7,196 nucleotides of DNA, from NCBI GenBank assembly GCA_017626655.1, contig JAGAIH010000458.1, positions 1 through 7,196 of the forward strand, written 5' to 3'. Below the pieces are notes generated by a model, which searched no databases, was not told the origin of the DNA, and saw only the letters and a list, made by a program, of their open reading frames with translations. Position 1 is the stretch's first letter; each line of letters opens with the position of its first letter. The stretch comes from Clostridia bacterium. Its GTDB lineage: Bacteria > Bacillota_A > Clostridia > Oscillospirales > CAG-272. This document shows, in pieces, positions 1,156-6,987 of the stretch. The translations under genes were made by a program, and so were the position numbers.

Positions 1156-1929
1156 GTGTCCGTTTTCGTTATGGGAGATCTCCATCTCTCCACCAATCAG
1201 TCCACCAACAAATCCATGGAAAAATTCGGTAAGCGCTGGCTGGGCTATACCGAGAAGATCCGCAGGAACTGGGAGGCCGTGGTCACCCCCGCGGACACCG
1301 TGGTCATCCCCGGGGATATTTCCTGGGCCATGAAGCTGGAGGAGGCGCTTTCCGACTTTCAGTTCATCGAATCCCTCCCCGGCACCAAGCTCATCGGCAA
1401 GGGCAACCACGATTTCTGGTGGAACACGGGCGCCAAAATGACCGCTTTCTTTGAGGAGAATCACATCGAATCGGTGAAGATCCTCAACAACAACGCCTAT
1501 TTTGTGGAGAACCAAGTCCTCTGCGGCACCCGCGGGTGGTTCTTGGAGGAGCGACAGCAGGTGACGGTGGGGTCGGTGGACTACGAGAAGATCATCAACC
1601 GCGAGGTCATCCGTCTGAGGCTCTCCCTGGACAGCGCGGTGACTCTGCAACGGGAGTGCGAGGAGCATAAGGGCTTTACGCCGCCCATTTCGGTGTTCCT
1701 CCACTTTCCTCCCGTTTGGCTGGACTTCATCTGCCGCCCCTTCGTGGACACCCTCCACGAATACGGCGATCCTCCTTGCTATTTCGGGCATATCCACGGC
1801 ATGTACAACGCCCCAAAGGAGTTCGATTTCGAGGGCATCCCCATGCGCCTGATCTCCTCCGACGCCATGGATTTCACCCTGTACCGACTGCCCGCGGTCG
1901 TGAACGGAACAGCCTCCACGCATTTGTAA
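1156..1929 (+). CDS. Calcineurin-like metallophosphoesterase
   Basis: This is a predicted cytosolic metal-dependent phosphoesterase of 257 residues; its substrate cannot be read from the sequence. All blocks of the calcineurin-like fold are present: GDLHLS at 7-12 (D8 and H10), GDISWAM at 53-59 (D54), GNHD at 83-86 (N84, H85), a histidine in LHFPP (H183), and GHIH at 211-214 (H212, H214). These would bind a two-metal centre. The WAMKLEEA and RGNHD/KGNHD-plus-WW context resembles a clostridial group of uncharacterised predicted phosphohydrolases. GTG is chosen as start because AAAGGAG lies 8 bases upstream and GDLH then begins at residue 7, as usual for the family. No signal peptide or membrane helix is visible. 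It has a terminator in front and no clear U-tract terminator behind, so some transcripts may run on towards tig. Fold is sure, function is not. Confidence 0.9.
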   Translation: MSVFVMGDLHLSTNQSTNKSMEKFGKRWLGYTEKIRRNWEAVVTPADTVVIPGDISWAMKLEEALSDFQFIESLPGTKLIGKGNHDFWWNTGAKMTAFFEENHIESVKILNNNAYFVENQVLCGTRGWFLEERQQVTVGSVDYEKIINREVIRLRLSLDSAVTLQRECEEHKGFTPPISVFLHFPPVWLDFICRPFVDTLHEYGDPPCYFGHIHGMYNAPKEFDFEGIPMRLISSDAMDFTLYRLPAVVNGTASTHL

Positions 1930-1935
1930 CAAATG
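1921..1935. repeat. 15-bp palindrome spanning the metallophosphoesterase stop codon
   Basis: CATTTGT (1921-1927) and ACAAATG (1929-1935) are exact inverted 7-bp arms around a single A, and the TAA stop at 1927-1929 lies at the centre. There is no T run after it, so it is not a usual terminator. It may be chance or a protein-binding palindrome. Confidence 0.4.
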
Positions 1936-1958
1936 CACAAAAGAACTTCCGCTTCCTA

Positions 1959-1974
1959 TGTGACTTTCGTCACG
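1959..1974. promoter_or_regulatory. CRP/FNR-family-like palindrome upstream of the tig promoter
   Basis: TGTGA-CTTTCG-TCACG matches 9 of the 10 fixed positions of the CRP-type consensus TGTGA-N6-TCACA. The same bases include a GTGAC/GTCAC hairpin with a TTTC loop, but no T run follows. The centre is about 72 bases upstream of the start of transcription inferred from the tig promoter, on a face and at a distance where CRP-type activators can act. The match is seen directly; that a CRP-family protein binds it is inference, and there is no regulator gene in the window. Confidence 0.35.
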
Positions 1975-2003
1975 GGACAAACCGGGAAAATTTACAAAAA
2001 CTC

Positions 2004-2032
2004 TTGACAAAATTACAAAAAACAGATAAAAT
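2004..2032 (+). promoter_or_regulatory. Sigma-A type promoter of tig
   Basis: TTGACA (2004-2009) is a perfect -35 box, and TAAAAT (2027-2032), 17 bases further on, matches the -10 consensus at five of six positions. The flanks are A/T-rich, unlike the GC-rich genes around them. Transcription would start near 2039-2040, giving a leader of about 70 bases before the tig ATG. This is the clearest promoter in the window and suggests strong constitutive expression of trigger factor. Confidence 0.9.
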
Positions 2033-2047
2033 ATACTGTGAGTGTAA

Positions 2048-2113
2048 ATGGGAGCAGTATGTCCAATTGAGACCGACTTTCCCTCAACAAAAGAAAGGAA
2101 TCATCAAACATGA
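2048..2113 (+). other. Possible 21-codon upstream ORF overlapping the tig start
   Basis: An ATG at 2048, only about 8 bases after the inferred transcription start, opens a 21-codon frame that ends in TGA at 2111-2113, so its stop overlaps the tig ATG in an ATGA arrangement. It has no convincing Shine-Dalgarno site and would need near-leaderless initiation. It may be chance; if translated, it could couple to tig. Confidence 0.15.
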
Positions 2114-3405
2114 GTCTGATCAAAGCAGAAAAGGCCGAGAAGAGCGCCATGATCCTGGAGTTCTCCGTGGATAAGGAGACCTTCGACAAGGCCGTAAACA
2201 AGGTTTACCGTCAGCAGGTGGGCAAGATCAATGTCCCCGGCTTCCGTAAGGGCAAGGCCCCCCGTTCCGTCATCGAGCGTATGTACGGCAAGGGTATTTT
2301 CTGGGAGGACGCCGCTAACGAGCTGCTTCCCGACGCTTACGAGGCAGCACTGAACGAGTCCGGTGTCAAGCCCGTTGGCCGCGCTGAGTTCGATATCACC
2401 AGCATTGACGATAACGGTATCGTCTTCACCGCCACCGTTCCCGTGAAGCCCGCCGTGGAGATCGAGGGCTACAAGGGCATCGAGGCCGCCAAGGTCGTGG
2501 ATCCCGCAACCGACGTCGAGATCGACAACGAGATCAAGATCGTCCGCGAGCGCAACAGCCGCGAGACCGAGATCACCGACGATACCCCCGCCGCAAACGG
2601 CGACTCCACCAAGATCGACTTCGAGGGCTTCGTGGACGGCGTCGCTTTCGAGGGCGGCAAGGGCGAGGACTACAATCTGAAGCTGGGCTCCGGCTCCTTC
2701 ATTCCCGGCTTTGAGGAGCAGATCATCGGTCACAAGATCGGCGAGAGCTTCGACGTCAACGTCACCTTCCCCGAGGAGTACCACGCCAAGGAGCTTGCCG
2801 GTAAGGCCGCTACCTTCAAGGTCACCCTGAAGGCCATCACCCACATCGAGCTGCCCGAGCTGGACGACGACTTCGCCAAGGACGTCTCCGAGTTCGACAC
2901 CTTCGCCGAGTACCGCGCTGACGTGGAGGCCAAGATCCTGAAGCGCCACGAGTCCGCCGCCGAGTCCGTCTACGAGGAGACCATCGTCAAGGCTCTCAAT
3001 GAGAAGCTGGCCGGCGAGGAGATCCCCGAGGCTATGTACGAGGCCGAGACCGAGAACCTGCTCCGCGACTACGACAACCGTCTCCGTATGCAGGGTCTGG
3101 ATCTGAACACCTACTTCAAGTATACCGGCATGACCCTGGAGGCTATGCGCGAGCAGATGCGTCCCCAGGCCGAGTCCTTCGTCAAGACCCGTCTGGCTCT
3201 GGAGAAGATCGCAGAGCTTGAGAACCTGACCGCAACCGAGGAGGAGATCGAGGCCGAGTACACCCGCCTGGCCGAGGCTTACCAGATGGAGGCCGAGCAG
3301 GTCAAGGGCATGATCCCCGCCGAGTCCGTCGCCGAGGATCTCCGCGTCAAAGCCGCTATGGAGCTGGTCAAGGCCAACACCGTGGCTCCCGCTACTGCCG
3401 AGTAA
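2110..3405 (+). CDS. tig: Trigger factor, ribosome-associated chaperone and peptidyl-prolyl isomerase
   Basis: Trigger factor binds the ribosome at the polypeptide exit tunnel and protects newly made chains. The 431-residue length is normal. The N-terminal ribosome-binding domain (about 1-115) carries the signature GFRKGKAP at 44-51, followed by [15 protein letters not shown]. The FKBP-like prolyl isomerase domain runs from about 163 to 245 ([14 protein letters not shown], then [15 protein letters not shown] at 193-207, then [12 protein letters not shown]). The C-terminal chaperone arms (about 246-431) begin with [19 protein letters not shown] and are mostly charged helix. AAAGGA (2094-2099) stands 10 bases before the ATG. 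It has its own strong promoter and a GC-rich terminator behind it, so it is probably mostly transcribed separately from clpPX even though it is adjacent, as is usual in bacteria. Codon use is extremely biased to C/G endings, which fits high expression. The last residues are a short Ala/Thr-rich tail. Confidence 0.97.
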
Positions 3406-3442
3406 TCAACCAACCTCGGAAGCCCCCTTCCGCCGAATCGCT

Positions 3443-3480
3443 TGCCGCGGTCAGCCCAGAGCCGGCCGCGGCATACTTTT
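3443..3480 (+). terminator. Probable terminator after tig
   Basis: TGCCGCGG (3443-3450) and CCGCGGCA (3466-3473) form a perfect 8-bp GC stem with a 15-base loop, followed by TACTTTT. The T tract is interrupted, so termination may be partial. A second small hairpin follows at 3489-3506 (ACGG/CCGT or, alternatively, GGAG/CTCC) before TTTTGATTTTT, and may add to termination. Confidence 0.6.
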
Positions 3481-3508
3481 CAAAATCTACGGGAGTTTCC
3501 GTCTCCTT

Positions 3509-3538
3509 TTGATTTTTCTCCGCTTTATGGGGCAGAAT
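3509..3538 (+). promoter_or_regulatory. Candidate promoter of the clpP-clpX-purA unit
   Basis: TTGATT (3509-3514) and CAGAAT (3533-3538) are separated by 18 bases, a moderate sigma-A match. A second possible -10, TACAAT (3553-3558), has five of six consensus bases but only a poor -35 (GGGCAG). One of these probably drives clpP, since a terminator lies upstream and the region becomes A/T-rich. I saw no CtsR heptad repeat and no CIRCE element here, so heat-shock control of the usual Bacillus type is not indicated. Confidence 0.35.
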
Positions 3539-3574
3539 ACAGGTATGCTCCATACAATGAAACTAAATGAATGT

Positions 3575-3579
3575 GAGGT
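3575..3579 (+). promoter_or_regulatory. Ribosome binding site that decides the clpP start
   Basis: GAGGT ends 7 bases before the ATG at 3587 and 10 before a second in-frame ATG at 3590. It supports the start MMNDLYNTG and rules against upstream in-frame starts back to 3509, which would add an unusual 26-residue leader overlapping the promoter region. Confidence 0.7.
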
Positions 3580-3586
3580 AACCAAC

Positions 3587-4207
3587 ATGATGAATGATCT
3601 GTACAACACGGGTATGCCCCGCTCTTACCTCGTTCCCACCGTGGTCGAGCAGACCGGCCGCGGCGAGCGCGCCTACGATATCTACTCCCGTCTGCTCAAC
3701 GACCGCATCATTTTCCTGTCGGATGAGGTCAACGACGCCACCGCCTCCCTGGTGGTCGCCCAGCTCCTCTTCCTGGAGGCCCAGGATCCCGACAAAGATA
3801 TTTCCTTCTACATCAACAGCCCCGGCGGATCCGTCACCGCGGGTATGGCGATCTACGACACCATGAACTTCATCAAGTGCGACGTCTCTACCATCTGCAT
3901 CGGTATGGCCGCCTCCATGGGCGCGTTCCTGCTCTCCGCCGGCGCCAAGGGTAAGAGAATCGCTCTGCCCCACAGCGAGATCATGATCCATCAGCCCCTC
4001 GGCGGCGCCCAGGGTCAGGCCTCGGATATCAAGATCCGCGCCGACCTCATCCTCCGAACCAGAGATATGCTCAACAAGATCCTGGCCGAGAATACCGGCA
4101 AGTCCATCGAGCAGATCGAGCGGGATACCGACCGCGACAACTTCATGACCGCCGAGCAGGCCCTGGAGTACGGTCTGATCGACAAGATCTACACCCACCG
4201 CGACTAA
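3587..4207 (+). CDS. clpP: ATP-dependent Clp protease proteolytic subunit
   Basis: ClpP is the serine peptidase that forms the two-ring barrel of the Clp protease and degrades proteins threaded in by ClpX or ClpC/ClpA. The product of 206 residues matches the family length. The catalytic triad is complete: S110 in [10 protein letters not shown]135 in IMIHQPLGG, and D184 in ERDTDRDNF, each one position below the E. coli numbers. [17 protein letters not shown] (75-91) is the substrate-binding strand and turn. The N-terminal [24 protein letters not shown] segment gives the axial loop and propeptide region. The ATG at 3587 is preferred for its GAGGT site; MND at 3590 is the alternative. The gene is followed by clpX after 22 bases, so the two are surely cotranscribed and should supply a stoichiometric ClpXP. 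Nothing in it appears unusual. Confidence 0.97.
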
Positions 4208-4229
4208 TTCCACGAAAGGAAGCCCTATC

Positions 4230-5624
4230 ATGTCCAATACCACGAATCGTGGCGGCGGCAAGAATCAGAATCTCCACTTCTGCTCCTTCTGCGGCCGCAA
4301 CGAGAACCAGGTCAACTTCCTCATTCCCTCCTCCACGGGCGCGTACATCTGCGACTACTGCGTGGACGCCTGCTCGGATCTCATCGACGAGGCTATGGGC
4401 AACACCCGCGCCGCGTCTGTCAATTTCGGTGAGCTGAACCTGGCCACCCTTCCCCGCCCCATGCAGATCAAGGAGGCCCTGGACGAGTACGTCATCGGCC
4501 AGGACGAGGCCAAGATCGCTCTGTCGGTGGCGGTCTACAATCACTACAAGCGCATTCTCACCAAGACCCCCAAGAAGAAGGGCAAGAAGAAGGCCGACAC
4601 CGCCCCCGCCGAGGACTACATGGAGGCTCTTCGCGAGGTGGATATCCAGAAGTCCAACGTCCTGCTCCTGGGCCCCACGGGCGTGGGTAAGACCTACCTG
4701 GCCCAGACCCTGGCCAAGACCCTCCAGGTCCCCTTCGCCATCGCCGACGCCACCACGCTGACCGAGGCGGGCTACGTGGGCGAGGACGTGGAGAACATCC
4801 TCCTGCGCCTGATCCAGGCCGCCGACTTCGATATCGAGCTGGCTGAGCGGGGTATCATCTATATCGACGAGATCGACAAGATCGCCCGCAAGAGCGAGAA
4901 CCGTTCCATCACCCGCGACGTGTCGGGCGAGGGCGTCCAGCAGGCTCTTCTGAAGATCCTGGAGGGCACCACCGCCAATGTGCCTCCCCAGGGCGGCCGC
5001 AAGCACCCCAACCAGGAGTTCCTCCGCATCAACACCGAAAACATCCTCTTCATCTGCGGCGGCGCCTTCGACGGCCTGTCCCAGATCATTGAGAAGCGGG
5101 AAGGCGGTACCACCGTGGGCTTTGGCGGCGCGATCCGCACCAAGTCCGAGCGGGTTCAGAGCGGTGTGTTCAAGAACGTGGTCCCCCACGATATCGTCAA
5201 GTTCGGTCTCATCCCCGAGCTGGTGGGCCGTCTGCCCGTTATCGTCACATTGAACGACCTGGACCGCAACGCCCTCATCCGCATCCTCTCCGAGCCCAAG
5301 AACGCCGTGATCAAGCAGTACATGAAGCTCTTCGGGCTGGATCACGTCCGCCTGGTCTTTGAGGACGAGGCTCTGGAGGCCATCGCCGAGGAGGCCCTGG
5401 CCCGCAACACGGGCGCCAGAGGTCTGCGCGCCATCATGGAGCAGTTCATGATGAAGCTCATGTACGAGCTGCCCTCGGATGAGCTGGCCGAGACCGTCAC
5501 CATCACCCGCGACTTCATCCTGGGTAATGGTGAGGCCGTCATCACCCACCGCGCACCCGCCCTGCCCGAGGCAGAGACCCCTGCGCTTCCCGAGTCCACC
5601 GAGGACTCTACCGATACCGAATAA
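4230..5624 (+). CDS. clpX: ATP-dependent Clp protease ATP-binding subunit ClpX
   Basis: ClpX is an AAA+ unfoldase whose hexamer recognises tagged proteins and feeds them to ClpP. Of 464 residues, the N-terminal zinc domain has C18, C21, C41 and C44. The AAA+ module shows Walker A GPTGVGKT (148-155), pore loop 1 GYVGED (181-186), Walker [11 protein letters not shown] (209-218), the RKH loop (257-259), the arginine finger in LVGRLP (R334) and sensor 2 GARGLR (R397). The ClpP-docking loop reads VGF (296-298) in place of the usual IGF, a conservative change. Two parts look lineage-specific: a lysine-rich insert at about 112-121 and an acidic, proline-containing tail (about 441-464) with PALPE twice. 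The length exceeds the usual 410-430 because of these. AAAGGA lies 9 bases before the ATG. It sits 22 bases after clpP and 33 before the purA-like gene. Confidence 0.97.
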
Positions 5625-5657
5625 GCATTTTCCATCCCGAAAGGAATTTCAAAAGCA

Positions 5658-6923
5658 ATGTTGACCGCAATCGTTGGCATCAACTGGGGCGACGAGGGCA
5701 AGGGCCGCATGGTGGACCTGCTCTCCCGCGACCAGCAGATCGTTGTCCGCTACCAGGGTGACCACAGCTCGGAGCATACCGTCGTGACCGAGCGTGGCCG
5801 CTATATTCTCAATCTTCTTCCCACGGGTATTCTTCATCCTGACGTCGTCAACGTCATTGGCAACGGCGTGGTGGTGAATCCCTCCCATCTGGAGGAGGAG
5901 ATCAACGCCCTTCTCAGCCAGGGAGTCATGATTACCCCCGACAATCTCAAGATCTCCGACCGCTGTCCCGTGGTGCTTCCCTACCACGTCACCACCGAGC
6001 AGTACGAGCTGGAGCGCCGCGGCGGCGACGTCCGCAAGACCTGCGGCGTTTCCATGGTCTTCGGTGACAAGGCGCTGAACATGGCCATTCGTATGGGGGA
6101 TCTCCTGCACCCTGAATTCCTCCGCTGCCGCCTGGAGAAGTTCATCTCCTACAAGTCCACCGTTATAAAGAGCGTGTACGGTAAGGAAGCCATTGATCCG
6201 GACGAGATCATGGAGTACGCCATCCATTACGGCAAGGTCTTCGGTGACTTCATCTGCGACACCGGCGAGTACCTGACCGAGGCCGCCGCCATGGGCATGA
6301 ACATTCTCTTTGAGGCGCCCCAGGGCGCCCTCCGCGACGTGGATCTGGGCGCCTACCCTTACACCGCTTCCTCCTCCACCGTGGCCGCCTACGCCACCAT
6401 CGGCGCGGGCGCTCCCGCTCTGAAGCTGGACAAGACCATCGGCGTGCTGAAGGCCTTTTCCTCCATGGTGGGAGAGGGTCCCTTCGTTTCCGAGCTGTTC
6501 GACGAGAAGGCCTCCCAACTCATGGAGACCGGCAACGAGGCCGCCGAGAAGATCTCCCACATCCACCGCATCGGCGCCTTTGACGCCGTGGCCTCTCGCT
6601 ACGGCGTGAGGATCCAGGGCGCGGACGAGCTGGCCCTCACCAAGCTGGACAGCCTGTCCTACATGGACAAGATCCCTGTCTGCGTGGCATACGAGATCGA
6701 CGGTGTCCGCACCGATAAGTTCCCCATCGGAGCCGATCTGGAGCAGGCCAAGCCCGTCATCGAGTACGTGGACGGCTGGAACTGCGATATCTCGGAGTGC
6801 CGCACCCCCGACGATCTCCCCGTGGGCGCTCTGACCTACGTCAAGTACCTGGAGCATCTGTTGGGCTGTCACATCGCCTACGTGTCCGTGGGCGCCGAGC
6901 GCAACGCTTACGTTAAGCTGTAA
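5658..6923 (+). CDS. Divergent adenylosuccinate synthetase (PurA) family protein, possibly altered substrate
   Basis: Canonical PurA joins IMP and aspartate with GTP to make adenylosuccinate. This 421-residue protein has the whole fold: P-loop NWGDEGKGR (9-17, catalytic D12 and K15), VIGNGVVVNP (66-75), the second catalytic His (H40), Q222 in APQG, YPY (233-235), VGEGPFVSEL (271-280) and the guanine-binding TKLD (328-331). Yet the substrate residues differ: GGHNAGHT is GDHSSEHT (34-41); the TTGRGIGP phosphate loop is shortened to KTCGVSM (about 127-133); R143, L228 and T239 of the E. coli enzyme become N141, R226 and A237; and TTGRxRR, which binds aspartate and IMP, becomes KISHIHR (298-304), with both key arginines now His. 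The C-terminus ends at SVGAERNAYVKL. AAAGGA lies 12 bases before the ATG. It follows clpX by 33 bases and ends before a strong terminator. It could be a paralogue with another substrate or a regulatory GTPase; I leave the symbol empty, though annotation pipelines would probably call it purA. Confidence 0.85.
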   Translation: MLTAIVGINWGDEGKGRMVDLLSRDQQIVVRYQGDHSSEHTVVTERGRYILNLLPTGILHPDVVNVIGNGVVVNPSHLEEEINALLSQGVMITPDNLKISDRCPVVLPYHVTTEQYELERRGGDVRKTCGVSMVFGDKALNMAIRMGDLLHPEFLRCRLEKFISYKSTVIKSVYGKEAIDPDEIMEYAIHYGKVFGDFICDTGEYLTEAAAMGMNILFEAPQGALRDVDLGAYPYTASSSTVAAYATIGAGAPALKLDKTIGVLKAFSSMVGEGPFVSELFDEKASQLMETGNEAAEKISHIHRIGAFDAVASRYGVRIQGADELALTKLDSLSYMDKIPVCVAYEIDGVRTDKFPIGADLEQAKPVIEYVDGWNCDISECRTPDDLPVGALTYVKYLEHLLGCHIAYVSVGAERNAYVKL

Positions 6924-6931
6924 GGCTACAT

Positions 6932-6976
6932 AAAAAGAAGCATGACCGATGCAAGAGACGGGCATGCTTCTTTTTT
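6932..6976. terminator. Strong bidirectional intrinsic terminator
   Basis: AAAAAGAAGCATG (6932-6944) and CATGCTTCTTTTT (6963-6975) are perfect 13-bp arms around an 18-base loop in which CCG/CGG can pair further. On the plus strand a run of six T (6971-6976) ends transcription 9 bases after the purA-like stop; on the minus strand five T close the same hairpin. It can therefore also stop a convergent gene coming from beyond the window. Confidence 0.92.
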
Positions 6977-6987
6977 ACTTTTCGACT

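Follow-up and report, generated by a model that had tools for sequence, protein, structure and literature searches.

A PurA-like protein encoded behind clpX in Clostridia with a conserved GTP site and replaced IMP and aspartate sites

Residues kept and replaced in the PurA-like protein and its clade

The window, that is, the whole stretch of 7,196 nucleotides analyzed here (Clostridia bacterium, contig JAGAIH010000458.1), codes at positions 5658..6923 of the forward (+) strand, on which all window features below are located, for a protein resembling PurA, the adenylosuccinate synthetase (AdSS). The open reading frame starts with ATG, is unbroken and encodes 421 amino acids (aa). PF00709 spans residues 4-418 (441 bits), so that both the AdSS fold and this domain extend over the full length of the protein. 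In the predicted model the fold is unchanged, and Foldseek matched it to solved full-length PurA enzymes at 29-38% identity. Low pLDDT (predicted local distance difference test) values of loop 229-237 were considered as a special trait of this model and dismissed, as a canonical control (P0042) is likewise low at 229-242.

The distinction from canonical PurA becomes apparent at the level of individual residues. As the numbering reference we used E. coli K-12 PurA from its annotated record. The binding site for guanosine triphosphate (GTP) begins with the codons for G-D-E-G-K-G (5688..5705), which include the catalytic Asp (E. coli D13). Altogether, G12-D13-E14-G15-K16-G17, H41, T330-K331-L-D333 (T-K-L-D codons at 6639..6650), S414 and G416 are retained. 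The half that binds inosine monophosphate (IMP) and aspartate is a different matter. D-H-S-S-E-H (5760..5777) replaces canonical G-N-N-A-G-H, with the IMP contact N38 lost and H41 retained, and K-I-S-H-I-H-R-I (6549..6572) replaces A-T-G-R-P-R-R-V, with the loss of the aspartate loop. At the position of the canonical IMP-phosphate loop G127-x-T129-x-R131 the alignment places a loop that is two residues shorter (GGDVRKTCGVSM, 6021..6056); G127, T129 and R131 are gone, and the alignment within the loop is uncertain. At the aspartate-site positions R131, T301, R303 and R305 the protein has C, I, H and H; we take these four to form the aspartate site, just as the positions counted below as the GTP site and the aspartate loop are presumed to have these roles. 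In the H. pylori enzyme, Arg294/Arg296 bind a sulphate in 8QWA (PMC11571797). At the IMP ligands N38, G127, T129, R143, T239 and R303 it has S, a gap, K, N, A and H. In H. pylori AdSS, IMP is hydrogen-bonded by D12, N37, G119, T121, T230, V264, R294 and, from the partner subunit, R135* (PMC11571797, Table 3); by constant offsets these map to E. coli D13, N38, G127, T129, T239, V273, R303 and R143*. Among the eight residues in that table, D13 and V273 (a backbone contact) alone remain in the window protein.

We searched 5.8 billion proteins with both the window protein and a profile, listing the best 120 matches of each. Among the matches listed, at least 61 clusters are of the same kind and are 62-90% identical to the window protein. 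By profile score, 60 of them (709-815 bits) stand apart from the remaining listed matches (up to 673 bits, P0032), the truncated P0121 scoring 649. Their lengths are uniform as well (385-421 aa in 60 of the 61 clusters, 369 aa in one). We then built an IQ-TREE phylogeny of 93 sequences (62 clade members including the window protein, 29 of 83 canonical relatives, P0032 and E. coli), in which the clade members are monophyletic with ultrafast bootstrap support of 100. The next branches are P0032 (support 99) and a canonical group of P0042, P0048, P0058 and P0060 (97). The mean root-to-tip distance is 3.68 within the clade vs 3.02. The sister sequence, P0032 (423 aa), has lost R305 and T301 as the clade has, with F and S in their place, and differs from it in retaining N38, G40, T129, R131 and R303; judged by these residues, it looks like a halfway stage between canonical PurA and the clade. 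Two of the 61 clusters (P0020 and P0029) are already labeled adenylosuccinate synthase in a source.

Comparison of the 83 canonical relatives with the 62 clade members revealed that the loss is selective. At 119 columns, called universal here, all canonical relatives share one residue with E. coli, and 90 of these columns are kept in the clade (the residue being present in at least 90% of its members). The 13 GTP-site columns, including D13, K16, H41, K331 and D333, are all kept. In contrast, 9 of the 10 columns that contact IMP or aspartate (13, 38, 127, 129, 131, 273, 299, 301, 303 and 305) are lost, as against 20 of the 109 others (Fisher p=8.7e-6); one of the nine losses is mild, since position 273 is V in 54 of the 62 members and in the window. 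The catalytic D13 is present in 61 of 62 (the gap belongs to the truncated P0121, so 61 of the 61 that cover it) and H41 in all 62. These counts bear out the initial annotation, which had described a GTP site kept while the IMP and aspartate sites were lost together. Its list of changed residues was largely accurate (N38S, G40E, the short loop, R143N, T239A, T300K, T301I, R303H and R305H). The exception is L228R, as all canonical sequences compared already have R at 228. In addition, residues 239, 143 and 300 are already S, K and A in 83 of 83 canonical relatives, and therefore only the further steps to A, N and K are special.

The positions of N38, T129, R131, T301 and R303 are variable within the clade, and 49 of the 62 members lack the segment corresponding to E. 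coli 111-118. At the same time, new residues have become fixed. All 62 clade members have D36, S39, E40, P223, Q224 and H305, positions at which the 83 canonical relatives invariably have G, A, G, Q, L and R; A300K is found in 61 of 62. Fifteen positions are fixed in both groups and yet different, and ten of these lie in or beside the substrate pocket, compared with 34 of 247 conserved columns (p=1.3e-6, with pocket windows hand-chosen after the data had been seen). Loss alone would fix no new residues, and these fixations thus argue for a pocket that has been rebuilt rather than decayed, selection being judged here from protein sequences alone. The initial annotation had argued against decay from an open frame of normal length and a codon bias like that of the neighboring genes, and the intact frame together with 61 further clusters, among the matches listed, that have the newly fixed residues leads to the same view.

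Family models give a mixed picture. The window protein is above the cut-off of one NCBIfam PurA model (NF002223, 413.5 vs 402) and below that of another (TIGR00184, 341.1 vs 395.55). It is also below the cut-off of NF003295 (PRK04293, 133.6 bits vs 368), which we take to be a model of short archaeal-type PurA, and far below that of the PurZ model (NF038379, 49.3 bits vs 300). PurZ replaces the catalytic Asp, whereas the clade retains Asp13; together with the low score this agrees with the earlier view that the protein is not a PurZ. Another difference from this group (PurZ, DgsS and PurZ0) is that PurZ still uses aspartate (PMC12884076), while the window protein has lost the aspartate loop. 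A search of viral contigs for clade members found none.

Chromosomal place and the distribution of PurA and PurB in relatives

The PurA-like gene is preceded by the trigger factor gene tig (2110..3405), clpP (3509..4207, counted from the first possible start, a later one being possible) and clpX (4230..5624), all identified by open reading frame and family match; clpX ends 33 bases upstream of it. The GC content at third codon positions is 0.839 in the PurA-like gene and 0.854-0.877 in tig, clpP and clpX. By its ClpX, the window groups with the genus to which genome G447 belongs: the identity to the window ClpX is 96% in G645, 91% in G660, 86% in G686 and 77% in G447 itself. In the latter genome a PurA of canonical pattern, 61% identical to the window protein, directly follows clpX in the same gene order, and the DNA match between the window and G447 crosses the clpX-purA junction (5638-6901, 67.5%). 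Since the two genes occupy the same place after clpX, the window gene is most simply a transformed PurA itself. In G645, the DNA match (89.6% over 1288-5572) ends near the end of clpX and a different open frame comes next.

We looked for clade members in overlapping genome samples of the order, the family, the genus and the relatives, and none was seen there. The best match was in G447 (659 bits; canonical by sequence), followed by G655 and G005 (635 bits), both with matches 56.7% identical to the window protein. Likewise, in an initial genome scan the best of the 80 loci listed was 57% identical. A full-text search of open-licence literature returned no title or abstract opening describing the clade or the joint loss of PurA and PurB in Clostridia.

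Among 12 congeneric genomes, PurA was found only in G447, and so was PurB, the partner enzyme in the adenylosuccinate route to adenosine monophosphate (AMP). ClpX was found in nine of the 12, where the sequence covered runs on for 1.5 kb or more past the ClpX match, and PurA is missing from eight of them; in the other three, no true ClpX was found either. The initial annotation had regarded the gene as a paralogue. This view finds no support, given the position of the gene at the canonical purA place of G447 and the lack of any PurA in 11 of the 12 congeners. The gene looks less like an additional copy than like the PurA itself, transformed where it stood.

Weak PurB matches occur in 10 of the 11 PurA-less congeners (13 matches, E 3e-6 to 3e-4; none in G558). 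As candidates for a replacement lyase they were rejected, because the frames at the 11 loci fetched resemble ArgH or FumC, according to start and signature motifs that we take to be characteristic of these enzymes. The PurB of G447 has just two companions in the PurB tree, P0146 (the same protein) and P0174, with P0147 next by identity among the best 120 matches listed. So few clusters near this PurB are suggestive of PurB loss in the species that carry the clade, except that a faster-evolving PurB would escape such a comparison.

The joint absence extends beyond the genus. Among 395 sampled genomes of the family (that of G122), with E values of up to 1e-3 for PurA and up to 1e-20 for PurB, PurA was found in 165 genomes and PurB in 168: 155 have both, 217 neither, 10 PurA alone and 13 PurB alone. 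This family sample, by whose members the taxon of the window is placed, includes G005, a genome of the same order (Oscillospirales) as G001, the genome of Negativibacillus massiliensis. Incomplete assemblies by themselves are a poor explanation for the absence of PurA and PurB, given that only 6 of 147 genomes of the order lacked tig (completeness values are not given). Since the same 11 congeners have neither enzyme, the usual PurA/PurB route to AMP seems to be absent in most of the genus. From the congeners we infer that the species of the window has likewise lost PurB and has no second PurA. Queried with E. coli Apt, 20 genomes yielded only weak matches (25-37% identity).

Possible functions of the PurA-like protein

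With an intact GTP site, D13 and H41, the protein would still bind GTP and probably carry out phosphotransfer. Adenylosuccinate would have no onward use in a cell lacking PurB, and the lost aspartate site is in keeping with this. The joint absence of PurA and PurB from most congeners and from much of the family sample makes a working adenylosuccinate synthetase unlikely. From these patterns we infer that AdSS activity has been lost and that phosphotransfer is now directed to a new acceptor. The best reading of the protein is therefore a putative GTP-dependent phosphotransferase or ligase-like enzyme aimed at that acceptor. The adenylosuccinate route (PurA and PurB) would have been lost in most of the genus before, or alongside, the change of the gene. 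The gene behind clpX would have kept its fold and GTP site, along with D13/H41 as the catalytic pair, while losing the residues that bind the IMP 5'-phosphate and aspartate, and a new pocket (D36, S39, E40, P223-Q224, K300 and H305) would have become fixed. The protein would then most likely bind GTP and either move the gamma-phosphate to the oxo group of a different acceptor or use it to activate that group. We hold with moderate confidence that an ancestral PurA was changed in place in this way and no longer makes adenylosuccinate; a regulator, a working AdSS, a direct IMP aminase and a relic were all ranked below this explanation.

Several observations weigh against it. The gene is missing from close relatives such as G645, with its 96% identical ClpX, and hence is dispensable. 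The window protein still reaches the cut-off of the NF002223 PurA model. The presence of D13, H41 and a Gln at 224 means that IMP chemistry may have been preserved. Finally, basic residues are left where the aspartate loop used to be (K300, H303 in 44 of 62 members, H305 and R306) and could still bind an anion there.

The complete retention of the GTP columns alongside lost substrate ligands, as well as the deletion of segment 111-118 in 49 of 62 members, would also be expected of a GTP-binding regulator or structural pseudoenzyme that senses GTP or binds a protein and performs no chemistry on a small acceptor. We consider this rather unlikely, because the catalytic D13 and H41 are retained (61 and 62 of 62) and because the residues newly fixed in or beside the old pocket suggest a bound acceptor. 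It is distinctly less probable that the protein, with unusual ligands, is still the working AdSS of its species. The NF002223 score, the unchanged fold of the model and the lack of another PurA in 11 of 12 congeners speak for it, yet just two of the eight IMP-bonding residues of the H. pylori table (PMC11571797) are left, T301, R303 and R305 are gone, and the partner PurB is missing in the same 11 congeners.

Even more doubtful is a one-step IMP aminase, in which GTP would activate the 6-oxo group for attack by ammonia or another amine, yielding AMP or an analogue without PurB. In its favor are the retained GTP site with D13 and H41, the Gln at 224, the lost aspartate ligands and the loss of PurB in relatives. 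Nevertheless, the IMP phosphate ligands N38, T129, T239 and R143 are lost too, and congeners such as G645 lack PurA, PurB and the window-type protein alike. The broader form, a PurA-derived enzyme that activates an oxo purine with GTP and, independently of aspartate and PurB, aminates IMP or a dephosphorylated or bound relative of it to an adenine product in a lineage that has given up PurB, appears a similarly long shot. Least probable of all is a relic that is being lost as selection on it relaxes. Such a gene might well evolve faster, as the root-to-tip distances indicate, and be absent from the 12 congeners examined, but it would hardly be represented by 61 clusters among the matches listed, 60 of them 385-421 aa long, with 90 of the 119 universal columns retained and newly fixed residues shared by all 62 members.

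The clade keeps the GTP half and rebuilds the substrate half of PurA, which ranks among the highly conserved enzymes that make purines. PurZ, a known departure from PurA, still condenses aspartate (PMC12884076). If the preferred explanation is true, a core enzyme has been re-aimed after the loss of its pathway. This raises the question of the AMP source in the 217 of 395 genomes that have neither PurA nor PurB. A label of adenylosuccinate synthase on the clade proteins would, in metabolic models, mask either a purine auxotrophy or an unrecognised route.

Purine operons of relatives and other features

Several congeners without PurA and PurB retain purE, purF, purM, purN, a PurO-like IMP cyclohydrolase, the transformylase acting on AICAR (5-aminoimidazole-4-carboxamide ribonucleotide), purD and purL. 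The purine operons (L198:2191-17599, L188, L194, L195 and L196, from G589, G645, G520, G482 and G699) also carry a formate-transporter-like gene and a formate-tetrahydrofolate ligase. From purM to purL they are 93-100% identical to G589, with purF at just 74-88% where mostly covered, which looks like an exchange of part of the operon between species.

A divergent PurC is encoded at L198:2786-3535, L196:2675-3436, L194:4385-5065 and L205:7193-7879; no PurC match was found in the stretches examined of G482 and G660. The divergent PurC of G589 scores 113 bits with TIGR00081 (cut-off 190), and this type has ASGNMRVY where the PurC of G005 has SPDTCRFW. It was considered as a marker of a PurB-free route and abandoned, because the same type is present in G575, which has PurA and PurB.

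In the window, an inverted repeat followed by a T run (6930-6977), terminator-like by eye, lies 3' of the PurA-like gene; it was not reported by a hairpin scan restricted to loops of 3-8. Two genes lie upstream of purE (L198:240-1633 and L196:211-1579): one has about 270 codons and matches no Pfam family above cut-off, and the other encodes an aminoacyl-tRNA editing domain (PF04073).
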